NCBI GenBank assembly: GCA_020432045.1
Contig: JAGQHB010000084.1
Location: 1-57,990, forward strand
Origin: Dehalococcoidia bacterium
GTDB taxonomy: Bacteria; Chloroflexota; Dehalococcoidia; Tepidiformales; Tepidiformaceae
Direction: 5' to 3'
DNA: 57,990 nucleotides
The number at the start of each line of letters is the position of its first letter. Within the stretch, counting starts at the first letter, position 1. This document shows, piece after piece, positions 35,661 through 43,906 of this stretch. The notes under the pieces are model-generated. The model was not told the DNA's origin. It did not search any database and saw only the letters and a program-made list of their open reading frames with translations. The position numbers and the translations under genes were made by a program.

Positions 35661-36152
35661 CTATCTCGTCGACGTTCCCGGGGCAGCCTCATCGCCAACG
35701 TTCCCGGCTGACCACTGCAAAAGCAGCCCATCGTACCGCGCCATCCTCGATGCCAGCTCCTCGCGCAGCGACGACATCTTCTCCATCTTTTCATCGAGTA
35801 GCCGGAGCTGGGCCACGGTCGCTTCGCGCGCCACCCGGATCTTGGCCGCCTTGTCGGCGACATCGGCATCCTTGCGCCAACCCGACTTCAACTGGAGCCG
35901 GATCTCGTCGGCGTCGAGCATGTCCTTGATATCGGCCAGCGAGAACCCCAACAGCTCCTTGAGCTCCTTGATTCGCTCCAGCCGGGCCAGGTCTCCTTCC
36001 GAATACAGCCGGAACCCGCCATCCATTCGGCTTGGCGGCCGCAGCAGGCCCTTCTCCTCGTAATAGCGGAGAGTCCGTTGTGTCAGCCCAAGCCGGTCAG
36101 CGGCTTCGCCGATTTGAAAGTACGCCTCGTCGACGCGTGCGCTCTCGTCCAT
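35661..36152 (-). CDS. MerR-family transcriptional regulator
   Basis: 163 residues. FQIGEAADRLGLTQRTLRYYEEKGLLRPPSRMDGGFRLYSEGDLARLERIKELKELLGFSLADIKDML (read as motif order) is the MerR winged-helix, including the RYYE and GFRLY signatures. The C-terminal helix (about 95-140) is a coiled-coil dimerisation segment, with no Cys cluster, so it is not a metal or redox sensor of the classical kind. A dyad at 36171-36196 lies just upstream, 19-44 nt from the ATG, and is a likely autoregulatory operator. TAGACT lies 11 nt before the ATG. Confidence 0.9.
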   Translation of the reverse strand: MDESARVDEAYFQIGEAADRLGLTQRTLRYYEEKGLLRPPSRMDGGFRLYSEGDLARLERIKELKELLGFSLADIKDMLDADEIRLQLKSGWRKDADVADKAAKIRVAREATVAQLRLLDEKMEKMSSLREELASRMARYDGLLLQWSAGNVGDEAAPGTSTR

Positions 36153-38342: not shown

Positions 38343-38349
38343 GTTCGTG

Positions 38350-38363
38350 CGAACATCCGTTCG
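38350..38363 (+). promoter_or_regulatory. LexA box CGAACATCCGTTCG
   Basis: Perfect CGAAC-N4-GTTCG palindrome, the Gram-positive SOS consensus. It lies between the lexA promoter and the ATG and overlaps a second palindrome GTTCGTGCGAAC (38343-38354). Confidence 0.88.
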
Positions 38364-38373
38364 GTGGGTGGCA

Positions 38374-39009
38374 ATGAAAGAGCTTTCAGGTAAACAGGCC
38401 GACATCCTTGAATTTCTCCGCAAGTTCCTTGAAGAGAAGGACTATCCCCCGAGCATTCGCGATATCCAGGAAGGCTGCGGGATCAGCAGCACCTCCGTCG
38501 TCGACTACAACCTCCGGAAGCTCGAAGAGAAAGGCCACATCCGCCGGGACCGCGAAATCTCGCGCGGCATCGAACTCCTCGGCGCCCGCGGCCGCCGTCC
38601 ACGCATCCTCGAGATCCCCGTCCTCGGGAGCATCGCCGCCGGGCAGCCGATCCCCGTGCCCTCGAGCGAACGATGGTCGAACGATTCTGAAGAGACGGTC
38701 GCCGTCACCGAGGACATGGTTCGCGGCCGCGAAAATGTCTTCGCTCTCCGCGTCAAAGGCACGTCCATGATCGAAGACCTGATCGACGACGGCGACATCG
38801 TCTTCCTCGAACCGGCGCGCTCGGCCTCCAACGGCGACCGTGTGGCGGTGTGGCTCAAGGACCGCGGCGAGGTGACCCTCAAGCGCTTCTACCACGAGGG
38901 TGACCGTATCCGTCTCCAGCCCGCGAACAGCACCATGGAGCCGATTTATACCGCTCCCGGAAACGTGGAGATCCAGGGCCGCTTTATCTCTTCATTCCGC
39001 CCAAGCTGA
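38374..39009 (+). CDS. lexA: LexA repressor
   Basis: 211 residues. The winged helix at about 1-65 (LSGKQADILEFLRKFLEEKDYPPSIRDI, SSTSVVDYNLRKLEEKGHIRRD) is followed by the self-cleavage site A89-G90 in GSIAAGQP and the Ser-Lys dyad S131 (GTSMIEDLIDDGD) and K170 (TLKRFYHEG). ATG 38374 is preferred to GTG 38347 because the LexA box would otherwise lie within the coding region. The box downstream of the -10 implies autoregulation and DNA-damage release by RecA. Confidence 0.95.
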   Translation: MKELSGKQADILEFLRKFLEEKDYPPSIRDIQEGCGISSTSVVDYNLRKLEEKGHIRRDREISRGIELLGARGRRPRILEIPVLGSIAAGQPIPVPSSERWSNDSEETVAVTEDMVRGRENVFALRVKGTSMIEDLIDDGDIVFLEPARSASNGDRVAVWLKDRGEVTLKRFYHEGDRIRLQPANSTMEPIYTAPGNVEIQGRFISSFRPS

Positions 39010-40024: not shown

Positions 40025-41113
40025 TCATCGCCCGCCGGACATCGTCGCGAGCTGGATGACGAGCAGTTCTAGCGCGATATCGCTATCAATCTCGTTCTTC
40101 TTGCTCCGGTAGTCCGCATTGACGATCGCCTCGATCGCCGCCGTGGCGCCCGCGACACCGATCCTTCGTGCGCGGGCCAGTGCGGCTTTGCGCAGTCCGG
40201 GGTAATTCCCCGCGGGTCCAAGCGCCCTTCCGATTTCGTCCTCCGGCGCTCCGCTGTCGAGAAGTGATGCCACGCCAGCGACCTGGCGGTACCGCGTCGT
40301 CATCTGCGTCAGTAACAGCTGGCTGATGTCGTCCGTCGCCATCAGCTTGGCCAGTGCATTCAACGCATCGCGGACATTGCCATCCTGCATCGCATCCAGC
40401 AGCACGAACTGCGTCGTCTCCCGTTCACCGGAGCAAATCTCGTAGATGTCATCGACCGTCACCTCGCGGCCCATCGCGTACAGTGCGAGCTTGTCCAATT
40501 CCCCGGCGATGGCGAGCGTGCCACCCTGCGTGATGCTTCCAAGCAGCGAAACAGGGTCCGTTTCTCGCTTCTGCTGCCAGTCCTCGCTATCCCAGTGGGC
40601 TGCGCTGGCGGGTGCGCCCCGGAAACGGATCCCTCTCACCGCCGCCTCTTCGCGGATGAATCGCGCGATTTCGTCCCGCCGCTTCGGTTCCGCGTACACC
40701 TCTTCCGCAACGCCCTGGATTTTCTTCAGCCGCGTCGCCATCGGATTCGACCTGCCGGGGGCCCCACCGGTGATCACCAACGAGGTGGTCGGTGGCACGC
40801 CGCCTTCGAGTGCCTCGAACAGCTTTTCGTACTGGACGAAGGTTTTGGGCGCGGGTGGCTCATTCCCATCGTCGGCGTCCCGGCGCGTCGACTCCCAACG
40901 GTCGAGGAAGTGGTCGACGATCACGAGCCGCTTCGGTGCGAGGAACGGCGGCGTCATCGCTGCGCCGATAATCTCCTCGGCCTTCGCGTCTTTGCCATCG
41001 ATCTGTATGAGGTTGGTGGTGAGCAGGCCCGTGCCGCCGTCCGCTTCTTCTTTCAGCTCCGCCAGGCGCCGCCGTGTCGCCAGTTCGTCCCCACCGCGTA
41101 GCAGCACGATCAT
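40025..41113 (-). CDS. holA: DNA polymerase III subunit delta
   Basis: 362 residues. MIVLLRGGDELATRRRLAELKE opens the HolA fold; PPFLAPKRLVIVDHFL, then FIREEAAVRGIRF, LLGSITQGGTLAIAGELDKLALYAMGREVTVDDIYEI and the C-terminal collar domain (VRDALNALAKLMATDDISQLLLTQMTTRYRQ) follow family order. It opens the sliding clamp in the clamp loader. TAGACT ends 6 nt before the ATG. Confidence 0.92.
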   Translation of the reverse strand: MIVLLRGGDELATRRRLAELKEEADGGTGLLTTNLIQIDGKDAKAEEIIGAAMTPPFLAPKRLVIVDHFLDRWESTRRDADDGNEPPAPKTFVQYEKLFEALEGGVPPTTSLVITGGAPGRSNPMATRLKKIQGVAEEVYAEPKRRDEIARFIREEAAVRGIRFRGAPASAAHWDSEDWQQKRETDPVSLLGSITQGGTLAIAGELDKLALYAMGREVTVDDIYEICSGERETTQFVLLDAMQDGNVRDALNALAKLMATDDISQLLLTQMTTRYRQVAGVASLLDSGAPEDEIGRALGPAGNYPGLRKAALARARRIGVAGATAAIEAIVNADYRSKKNEIDSDIALELLVIQLATMSGGR

Positions 41114-42283: not shown

Positions 42284-43630
42284 CTAGCCCGTTAGCCGCC
42301 CGCGGAGCTGTGGGTCCGCGCTGATAATCGCCTCTCCACGGGCAATGAGGCCCGGGACGGTCCCCTTGGCCCGATGGCCCAGCCGGTTCCCTACTTCCGC
42401 TACGCTCAGCCCCTCGTGCCGCAACACGGCTGCCGCCACCGCTCGCGCGTCTCGAAGATTCGCCGTCCGCTCGCGGCCCTCCAAATCCTTCGCGCCGACT
42501 GAGAAGTACGCGGCGACCCGTTCGATCAGCCCCGTCGCATCCCGGCAACCCGGCGCCACCATCTCCAGGATCAGCTGGGTCAACGCCGCATCAAGCCTCG
42601 CCTCATCCAGCCGCCCGGTGCGCTGTAGCCCGATGGCTGCATTGATCGCCCCGGCGAGGACCCGCACCGATTGCGCCGGAAACTGCGCCAGTCGCGTCAA
42701 AGCCCATTCCGGCAGCGTCGCCCCTGACTCCCGCGACCGCCACTCCGCAAACCGTCGACGCTCGTCGGAATTGAACGCCTGGACCTCTACGACGAGCCCT
42801 TCCTCCAGCCGCGACACCAGCCGCTGTGGCAGCCCGAGCTCCTTGGGCGGCAGTTCAGCACTCACCAGGATCGCGCCCTGTCCCGAACGTATGGCGTCGA
42901 TCGCCGCGGAAAGCTCCTCAACCGACTTCGGCGCAGTGGCTGCGTCACGCAGGTCGTCGATTAACAGCAGGTCGGCTGTGCGTACCTGCTCCTTGAACCG
43001 CTCCACTTCGCCGCCACGCAGGCTGCCAACGAACTGGCCGACGAAGTCGGGCCATGAAAGGCACACCACGCGGCGATTCTGTTCGCGGGCTCGCCAGGCC
43101 ACGGCCTGCAGCAAATGCGATTTGCCAATGCCCGGCGTCCCATGGACCACCAGCGGCGTCGGTCGCCAGCTGTCCCCGTCTGCGAGCGCGTTCGCAGCTT
43201 CCACGGCCAGGCGGTTCCCTTCCGCTATCTGGTAGCGGGCGAACGTGTATCCGGGCGTCATCCTCCCGAATATCCCGAGTTCGTGCGTCGCTGCCGGCTG
43301 TGCCGGCCCCGGCGCAAACAGCGCCGGCGCCGAATCCTCCGTCACGCGCGGCACCAGGCACAACCGAAGCGGGCTTCCGAACTGCTCGGCAGCCATCGAC
43401 GTGATCTCATCTTCCAGGTGCTCTCTGAGCCAATCTGCGTGGAACTGCGTCTTCACCTGTACTGTCAGCGTGCCAGTCCCTGCCTCCGTCGCCCGCGTGT
43501 CCCTCAGCCACGTGCGGAACTGGCGCTCGGGCACGACCAACTGCAGCCGCCCGAGTACTGCGTCCCAGTTTCTCGCGAGCTCGCGTCCAGCGGGCATGCT
43601 GCGGCCAGGCATGGGCACAAGGTCCTCCAT
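42284..43630 (-). CDS. DnaA-like replication initiator, divergent DNA-binding domain
   Basis: 448 residues. Domain I (WDAVLGRLQLVVPERQFRTWLRD, about 20-93) and a short linker precede an AAA+ core with Walker A GTPGIGKS (164-171), Walker B LLLIDDL (221-227) and the DnaA-type PKELGLPQRLVSRLEEGLVVEVQAF. Domain IV is recognisable (DARAVAAAVLRHEGLSVAEVGNRLGHRAKGTV), but the usual GGRDHTTV reads GHRAKGTV at 418-425. Asp, His and Thr that contact the DnaA box in E. coli are replaced. It may be a second DnaA paralogue or the lineage's own initiator with a changed site. The 5' leader is long and structured. Confidence 0.85.
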   Translation of the reverse strand: MEDLVPMPGRSMPAGRELARNWDAVLGRLQLVVPERQFRTWLRDTRATEAGTGTLTVQVKTQFHADWLREHLEDEITSMAAEQFGSPLRLCLVPRVTEDSAPALFAPGPAQPAATHELGIFGRMTPGYTFARYQIAEGNRLAVEAANALADGDSWRPTPLVVHGTPGIGKSHLLQAVAWRAREQNRRVVCLSWPDFVGQFVGSLRGGEVERFKEQVRTADLLLIDDLRDAATAPKSVEELSAAIDAIRSGQGAILVSAELPPKELGLPQRLVSRLEEGLVVEVQAFNSDERRRFAEWRSRESGATLPEWALTRLAQFPAQSVRVLAGAINAAIGLQRTGRLDEARLDAALTQLILEMVAPGCRDATGLIERVAAYFSVGAKDLEGRERTANLRDARAVAAAVLRHEGLSVAEVGNRLGHRAKGTVPGLIARGEAIISADPQLRGRLTG

Positions 43631-43906
43631 ACGAAAATCGCTTGCTTGGTGATCCCTAAGTCGATGGGTCCGTAGCCGGGGGACCCGAGTCCCCGGCTCG
43701 TTGGCCGCAGCGAGGTCGCTAAGGTAGCCCCGCGAAGTGCCCCCGGCAACGCAGTTACGTGAAGGAGAACAGCACCTTCACGCACTTTCATTTCTCGCTC
43801 CGGCTTATGTGGGTAGGCCGTATCCACGTGGTTATCCCGCCCGCCAAAGAGGCCACCGGCAACCACGGGTGTCCTCTTATTGGGAGGGAGGATGATGTGC
43901 GATTTT
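43631..43906. other. Structured intergenic leader of the DnaA-like gene
   Basis: No gene seen. It contains the hairpins AGCCGGGG..AC/GTCCCCGGCT (about 43674-43698) and CGTGAAGG (43758-43765) / CCTTCACG (43775-43782). Three DnaA-box-like 9-mers lie within 33 nt: TGTGGGTAG at 43808, GTATCCACG at 43820 and TTATCCCGC at 43832. It could be an autoregulatory leader, a replication-initiation site or a structured RNA. Confidence 0.45.

Follow-up and report, generated by a model that had tools for sequence, protein, structure and literature searches.

A sole, divergent DnaA with probably re-targeted DNA recognition, and probable loss of the dnaA-linked oriC, in a Dehalococcoidia-related order

The roles of individual residues in box recognition have been described for Escherichia coli DnaA (PMC7561715; PMC5043019), in which R399, D433, H434, T435 and H439 form the base-reading set. 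Bacterial chromosomes have a typical GC skew of about 2.5% according to PMC8941118, and in the simulations reported in PMC3317982 a single fixed termination point gave an acute skew shift, rounded shifts requiring probabilistic sites. In the literature searched we found no paper on DnaA or the replication origin in the group considered here, and the main text of the Tepidiforma flava genome paper (PMC10284905) makes no mention of skew, DnaA or replication. Co-evolution of initiator and origin is usually studied species by species. The single class examined in the present study instead offers a ladder of states, from an ordinary recognition helix with ordinary box arrays, through two families with a changed helix and changed arrays at the same place and spacing, to an order with a changed helix in which an array was not found.

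The window, a stretch of 57,990 nucleotides, encodes a DnaA (Table 1) that was first described without its strand; frame 1 of the plus strand is full of stops over the interval and the open reading frame lies on the minus strand. The earlier description as a DnaA-like initiator with domains I, III and IV was borne out by Pfam, with PF11638 (domain I, 50.7 bits), PF00308 (AAA+ domain III, 102.7 bits) and PF08299 (domain IV, 31.9 bits against a cut-off of 31.5) all above cut-off and hence the full domain I, III and IV architecture present. The score against the NCBIfam equivalog TIGR00362 is below the cut-off (226.6 vs 343.9 bits), with homology over residues 22-443. The positions of Walker A, Walker B, the box VII arginine and the sensor II arginine are recognisable throughout the order, the window protein included. 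An AlphaFold model built with 33 order sequences as input (mean pLDDT 88.6) found its best structural matches among DnaA structures (Z 26.8-28.0), including 1l8q (Z 28.0, rmsd 10.9 over 307 residues, a high value that is probably due to domain placement) and domain III of 2z4r (Z 27.0, rmsd 2.3 over 234 residues); residues 14-95 match domain I of 4tps (Z 16.3, rmsd 1.0 over 82 residues). The predicted fold is that of DnaA. By descent and architecture this is clearly a DnaA of the initiator family, which probably works like DnaA at other sites. Because most of the base-reading residues are missing and no box cluster was found, it would be misleading to class the protein with ordinary DnaAs acting at TTATCCACA boxes. 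Within 5 kb of the gene, as read from translations only, lie a lexA-like gene (38347-39009, plus strand) and a holA-like gene (40025-41113, minus strand). About 6 kb away is a gene read as MerR-family (35661-36152, minus strand), and a similar gene stands divergently beside dnaA in several relatives.

Table 1 Features of the dnaA locus in the window
Feature	Position	Strand	Remark
dnaA, encoding a 448-aa protein with divergent domain IV; no other DnaA found in the genome	42284..43630	-	
Domain I (PF11638, residues 22-81; model to about residue 93)	43352..43567	-	
AAA+ domain III, residues about 126-352; Walker A GTPGIGKSH, Walker B LLIDD, box VII Arg, sensor II Arg	42575..43255	-	
Domain IV helix-turn-helix region, residues about 368-447	42290..42529	-	
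GHRAKGTV in place of GGRDHTTV, residues 418-425	42356..42379	-	
-10-like TACCTT, 17 bp from the -35-like hexamer	43721..43726	-	Consensus resemblance only
-35-like TTGCCG	43744..43749	-	Consensus resemblance only
TTACGTGAA, near the -35-like hexamer (candidate site 2)	43755..43763	+	
Paired element CATAA-N13-ATGAA (CATAA-N-GTGAA in most relatives)	43787..43809	-	
TTATGTGGG, present once in the window; proposed as the re-targeted DnaA box (candidate site 1)	43805..43813	+	

The window gene accounts for the one Bac_DnaA_C match in its genome (G000; 3.48 Mb, 96.89% complete), so that a search for a second, canonical dnaA came back empty. Matches were obtained in 34 of 38 order genomes, the remaining four being 69-86% complete, and each of the 22 high-quality genomes has exactly one. 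Two alternatives had been raised at the outset, a different origin box and a paralogue with another role. The first is supported by the present analysis. The second, a paralogue of the Hda or DnaA-related kind, was rejected given the presence of domain IV, the lack of another DnaA in G000 and the single copy in 22/22 high-quality genomes. One order genome (G008) has two matches, but its canonical copy, on contig C35, was not accepted as a second order DnaA and was taken as contamination from another family. The full UvrA on C35 is closest to non-order families (top identities 64-67%, vs 61-64% for order members), with other UvrA pieces of G008 on C4 and C49; base composition of the G008 contigs did not by itself discriminate the suspected contaminant. 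Similarly, the DnaN on contig C354 of G003 is suspect because it shares 90.2% identity with L092 of G052, a member of another family; the second DnaN count leaves it out. Both contigs are probably cross-family contamination of genome bins. The gene is indeed away from dnaN, as first noted (dnaA on C34 and dnaN on C62 in G000), and dnaN adjoins dnaA in none of the order relatives in which both genes were located.

The motif GHRAKGTV was confirmed as originally read, with changes G431H, D433A, H434K and T435G and with R399, R432, T436 and V437 kept, so that the window protein retains only R399 of the base-reading set. The reported replacement of Asp, His and Thr thus stands for D433, H434 and, of the threonines, T435 alone. 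The residue counts cover 33 order proteins (of the 34 matching genomes, G014 was dropped for masked letters in the chosen frame) and 22 proteins from other families of the class. Three residues are absent from the order: His434 (0/33 vs 19/22), His439 (0/33 vs 16/22) and Gln408 (0/33 vs 13/22). Asp433 is found in 21/33 vs 19/22 and R399 in 32/33 vs 20/22, and R407, R432 and T436 are each kept in all 33 order proteins. A sequencing error in the motif, an explanation entertained in the earlier note, is excluded because His434 is missing throughout the order. Position 434 is occupied by Arg (16), Lys (12), Ala (3) or Pro (2), and with A433, K434 and G435 the window protein is extreme within its own order.

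These changes sit in a protein that has diverged as a whole. In a quick maximum-likelihood tree, for which the program warned of long branches, a very long branch with full support separates all true order DnaAs from the rest. Mean DnaA identity is 48.7% within the order, 41.1% among other families and 27.3% between the two, and that of the AAA+ domain is 29.9% for order against others vs 52.7% among others. The corresponding DnaN values are 78.4, 54.7 and 52.3% (without the suspect G003 row), and on these mean identities the acceleration is specific to DnaA, the AAA+ domain included, and does not extend to DnaN. Scans of named genomes initially found nothing; an alignment scan kept 80 loci, one of which is an order member (L204; JAJDUR010000105.1, 'Dehalococcoidia bacterium') that groups with genus g12. 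The order belongs to Chloroflexota, is related to Dehalococcoidia and is probably Tepidiformales; the closed genomes of genus g13, with about 70% G+C, would suit Tepidiforma, T. flava having a complete genome of 71.1% G+C (PMC10284905).

Canonical boxes are at chance level in the order, with 117 TTATCCACA in 37 order genomes vs 97 in a reversed control, compared with 272 vs 184 in 24 other genomes. At the dnaA loci themselves (3-20 kb each), TTWTNCACA is missing from 24/26 order loci and present as a single distant copy in the other two, vs 13/23 non-order loci with the motif, including the suspected contaminant L016. No cluster of TTATNCACA boxes at an origin was found in the order DNA examined, the genomes being read in part. 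Phased TGGATAA-N12-16-TGGATAA pairs occur in 0/37 order genomes vs 9/24 others (0/61 in controls), and in six of those nine the pair lies on the contig of the dnaA match. TGGATAA-type arrays with a 20-22 bp phase were identified just downstream of dnaA in 6/23 non-order loci (L004, L005, L006, L011, L012 and L017), none of 30 shuffles per locus being as good. A further 14 of the 23 have no array, and that of L016 is weak (matched by 4/30 shuffles). None was detected downstream of dnaA in the nine order loci tested. The earlier note would have been refuted by close relatives with the same protein as their only DnaA alongside normal boxes; the relatives do carry it as their only DnaA, but the boxes are at chance level and phased canonical pairs occur in none of the 37 genomes.

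Two sister families retain an array at the same place as the canonical one, with a different box. In G049 (helix GGRSASTV) the array after dnaA reads TTTC(T/G)ATAAC, that is GTTAT(A/C)GAAA, at 20-22 bp spacing (L021, 1874-2096); in G047 (helix GGRDHKTI) it reads TGGGGAGAA, that is TTCTCCCCA, at 20-21 bp spacing and no more than 330 bp downstream of dnaA (L020). Recognition helix and oriC box array have changed together, independently in the two families and with array geometry retained, which makes each a clean test case of initiator-box co-evolution. No phased array was seen beside dnaA in L023 (G041, helix GDRTPTGV) or L025 (G044, helix GYKDRTSV).

Skew was sampled in stretches (705 kb of 2.75 Mb in G012) and an error-function fit was used to compare smooth and step transitions by AIC. 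In the closed chromosome of G012 a switch centred at 1,261 kb has a 10-90% width of 311 kb, the smooth form being better by 124 AIC units. Its second switch, at about 2,798 kb (= 51 kb), has a width of 1,158 kb (149 units) with the 420 kb tile left out and of 1,429 kb (128 units) with it included. The smooth form is also better for both switches of closed G029, at 548 kb (width 432 kb, 30 units) and 1,869 kb (width 1,045 kb, 82 units). Skew in these two chromosomes thus changes over about 300-1,150 kb instead of in a step. The same fit to G049 gave a step at 113 kb, the place of dnaA and its array, the smooth form being no better. G049 is a control for skew sharpness only, its helix being non-canonical; since it too has lost D433 and H434 and yet keeps a sharp step, a helix change alone is not the cause of the other changes. 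Closed G011, as sampled, has hardly any coherent GC skew. In stretches of 12-20 kb, GC skew reaches 0.24-0.28 in G012 and G029, far above the typical value given in PMC8941118, with little AT skew in G012.

The parS sites cluster in a tract flanked on one side by rpmH-rnpA-yidD and on the other by a lipoprotein gene that precedes yidC (genes named by reading). In both G012, where it is at 1,298 kb, and G029, where it is at 569 kb, this cluster coincides with the narrow switch from + to -. The 16S gene and rpoB, few genes as these are, point away from parS in both. Were the parS locus to mark the side of the origin, the leading strand would be rich in C, contrary to the usual G excess; if skew has its usual polarity, initiation would be opposite the parS locus. 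In genus g13, where the parS-rpmH-rnpA-yidC locus is at the + to - switch, the choice is between a C-rich leading strand and initiation opposite the ancestral origin. Among ten genomes, the strand-corrected sign change around parS is clear in G026 alone; seven others show it weakly or in part, and G000 and G007 not at all. We rejected parS as a general origin marker. Contig C2 of G017 fits neither picture, with skew near 0 up to 468 kb and about +0.11 from 490 kb; the jump (L311, L312; 22 kb unread) is near dnaN at 458.6 kb and is a possible sharp switch. Clustered parS sites, several of them degenerate, were seen in G012 (L130, about 1,297-1,299 kb) and also in L085, L090, L328 and L326. Near the cluster in several order genomes is a palindrome such as GAACAAATGTTC, which we take to resemble a Gram-positive-type LexA box.

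The rounding, taken alone, could reflect genome rearrangement, or an origin that shifted its place in the course of evolution, while every cell initiates at a single site in the ordinary way. Rearrangement around the locus is real, as dnaN lies on opposite sides of parS in G012 and G029, and parS falls within a one-signed region in G000 and G007. Inversions should, however, leave blocks of opposite sign, and in two genomes the 5-kb blocks are uniformly low near the switch and grow with distance on both sides. We consider this explanation possible, if on balance doubtful.

The promoter of dnaA carries a conserved candidate for a new site. CATAA-N-(T)GAA or a one-letter variant is present in 33/33 order dnaA promoters, the relaxed pattern having a background of 40/20000 random 570-bp windows of order DNA, and two CATAA lie 49-51 bp apart in 20/33 promoters vs 3/20000 random windows. 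In the window, site 1 overlaps the region 43808-43840 that had been singled out in the earlier note. Read on the other strand, site 1 contains TTATGT in 21 and TTATGG in 12 of the promoters, and a second site of C(A/G)TAA type, about 50 bp nearer the gene and adjoining the -35-like hexamer, is found in 21/33. The strict paired pattern, searched in 12 genomes, stands at dnaA in G001, G007, G010, G012, G013, G016, G026 and G032; it has matches elsewhere in the 12 genomes, with totals only slightly above control, and dnaA is the only place at which it recurs. TTATGT is the form found in each of the 12 Lys434 genomes, and TTATGG that in every Ser433 genome, in counts that ignore phylogeny. As G005 and G019 share the helix DPST but have TTATGG and TTATGT, respectively, and kinship is uncorrected, we make no claim of helix-site co-variation within the order.

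DnaA autoregulates known dnaA promoters, and by analogy the natural reading of the element is as a candidate site for DnaA autoregulation. It might instead be bound by another regulator, the order's own DnaA box being a different, unseen one. In several genomes the neighbour of dnaA is a divergent gene of the MerR family, and the GTGAA half of the element is without a DnaA-box counterpart; but the element is still there when dnaA has a different neighbour (G000, G007 and genus g13), it keeps the TTAT half of the DnaA box, and its strict form recurs only at dnaA. We consider another regulator rather unlikely. That the box kept TTAT and changed the rest is suggested partly by the helix-plus-box changes of G049 and G047.

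A search of 2.07 Mb of order DNA (about 26% of G012, and the dnaA and parS regions included) turned up no cluster of the candidate box, which leaves a part for this box in an origin putative. Pairs of TTATG(T/G) within 150 bp occur at 18 places in this DNA, eight of which are dnaA promoters (49-50 bp), vs 14 for a reversed-pattern control. Tiles of G012 held no clusters of TTATG, TTATC or TTAT, and those of G011 held three TTAT groups, at spots of low G+C. A phased-array search of the sampled stretches returned 11 places, all but one of them G+C-rich repeats, and we propose none as oriC.

A bolder version of origin loss, which we hold only tentatively and think unlikely, is that the order gave up a fixed oriC altogether: initiation would occur anywhere in a zone of hundreds of kb, rounding the skew at both poles, and the re-targeted DnaA would be confined to self-regulation or would nucleate with little sequence demand. 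DnaA might also have been released from initiation and kept as a transcriptional (auto)regulator; replication would then begin without a DnaA-oriC system, at more than one place or at varying ones, as it does in Synechocystis and Nostoc. Such a release would fit the lack of canonical phased pairs in 37 order genomes, the fast evolution of DnaA with DnaN unaffected, the rounded skew of G012 and G029 and the near absence of skew in G011, and cyanobacteria are described in PMC7198777 as combining irregular skew with DnaA independence. The ATPase, arginine-finger and sensor motifs are conserved, however, and dnaA is retained in all high-quality order genomes but, according to the same source, lost in some DnaA-independent cyanobacteria; release is in our view improbable. 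That the helix changes are near-neutral and ordinary or weak boxes are still used is hardly credible, for although R399, R407, R432 and T436 are kept and G000 has six TTATCCACA, this box is missing from closed G012 and G032, TTATNCACA occurs once in 2.07 Mb vs twice in the reversed control, and changed helices accompany changed boxes in two sister families.

The account we favour, and consider probable, is that the order's sole initiator re-targeted its DNA recognition and that the dnaA-linked oriC was lost. On the stem of the order the whole of DnaA changed fast, beyond the recognition helix. The minor-groove residue R399 stayed, together with R407, R432 and T436, while readers of the CACA half of the box (H434, H439 and often D433) were replaced, 434 mostly by Lys or Arg. 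The new site would keep the TTAT half and change the other, giving TTATG(T/G)..., a form seen in every dnaA promoter examined. Usually paired at a distance of 50 bp (about five helical turns) beside the -35 element, it would serve there to repress or tune dnaA. What the order probably lost is the ancestral oriC, in which TTATCCACA boxes formed an array, phased at 20-22 bp, immediately downstream of dnaA. We infer that DnaA binds the promoter element and still starts replication at another site or sites. We extend the rounded-shift logic of PMC3317982 from termination to initiation. The order probably initiates at sites other than the usual ones, or more diffusely. Finding origins by DnaA box or skew minimum may fail in this order. 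If its suggested identity with Tepidiforma is true, the order includes cultured members, and box specificity, dnaA essentiality and origin usage are directly testable.

Compared with known systems, the order shares with the canonical DnaA/oriC of its own class (for example G051, G046, G045 and G059) the domain layout, AAA+ motifs, R399/R407/R432 and a single gene; it has neither their DHST or DHTT helices nor the phased TTATCCACA-type array found in 6/23 loci. The sister-family DnaAs of G049 and G047 show a changed helix and box like the change proposed for the order but, unlike it, have kept the array beside dnaA. The DnaA-independent cyanobacteria described in PMC7198777 resemble the order in the dnaA still present in some species. 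Their GC skew is irregular or weak; that of the order, in the stretches sampled, is almost absent in G011 but very strong, though smooth, in two other chromosomes. As in Thermotoga maritima, whose tmaDnaA box is ACCTACCAC (PMC10316083), the proposed box is unlike TTATNCACA, although the T. maritima boxes are clustered in the oriC studied there and no cluster was found in the order. In epsilonproteobacterial DnaA, as described in PMC5043019, residues 432-439 likewise vary and box specificity shifts; those boxes keep a TTCAC core, whereas the site proposed for the order is changed at positions 5-9.
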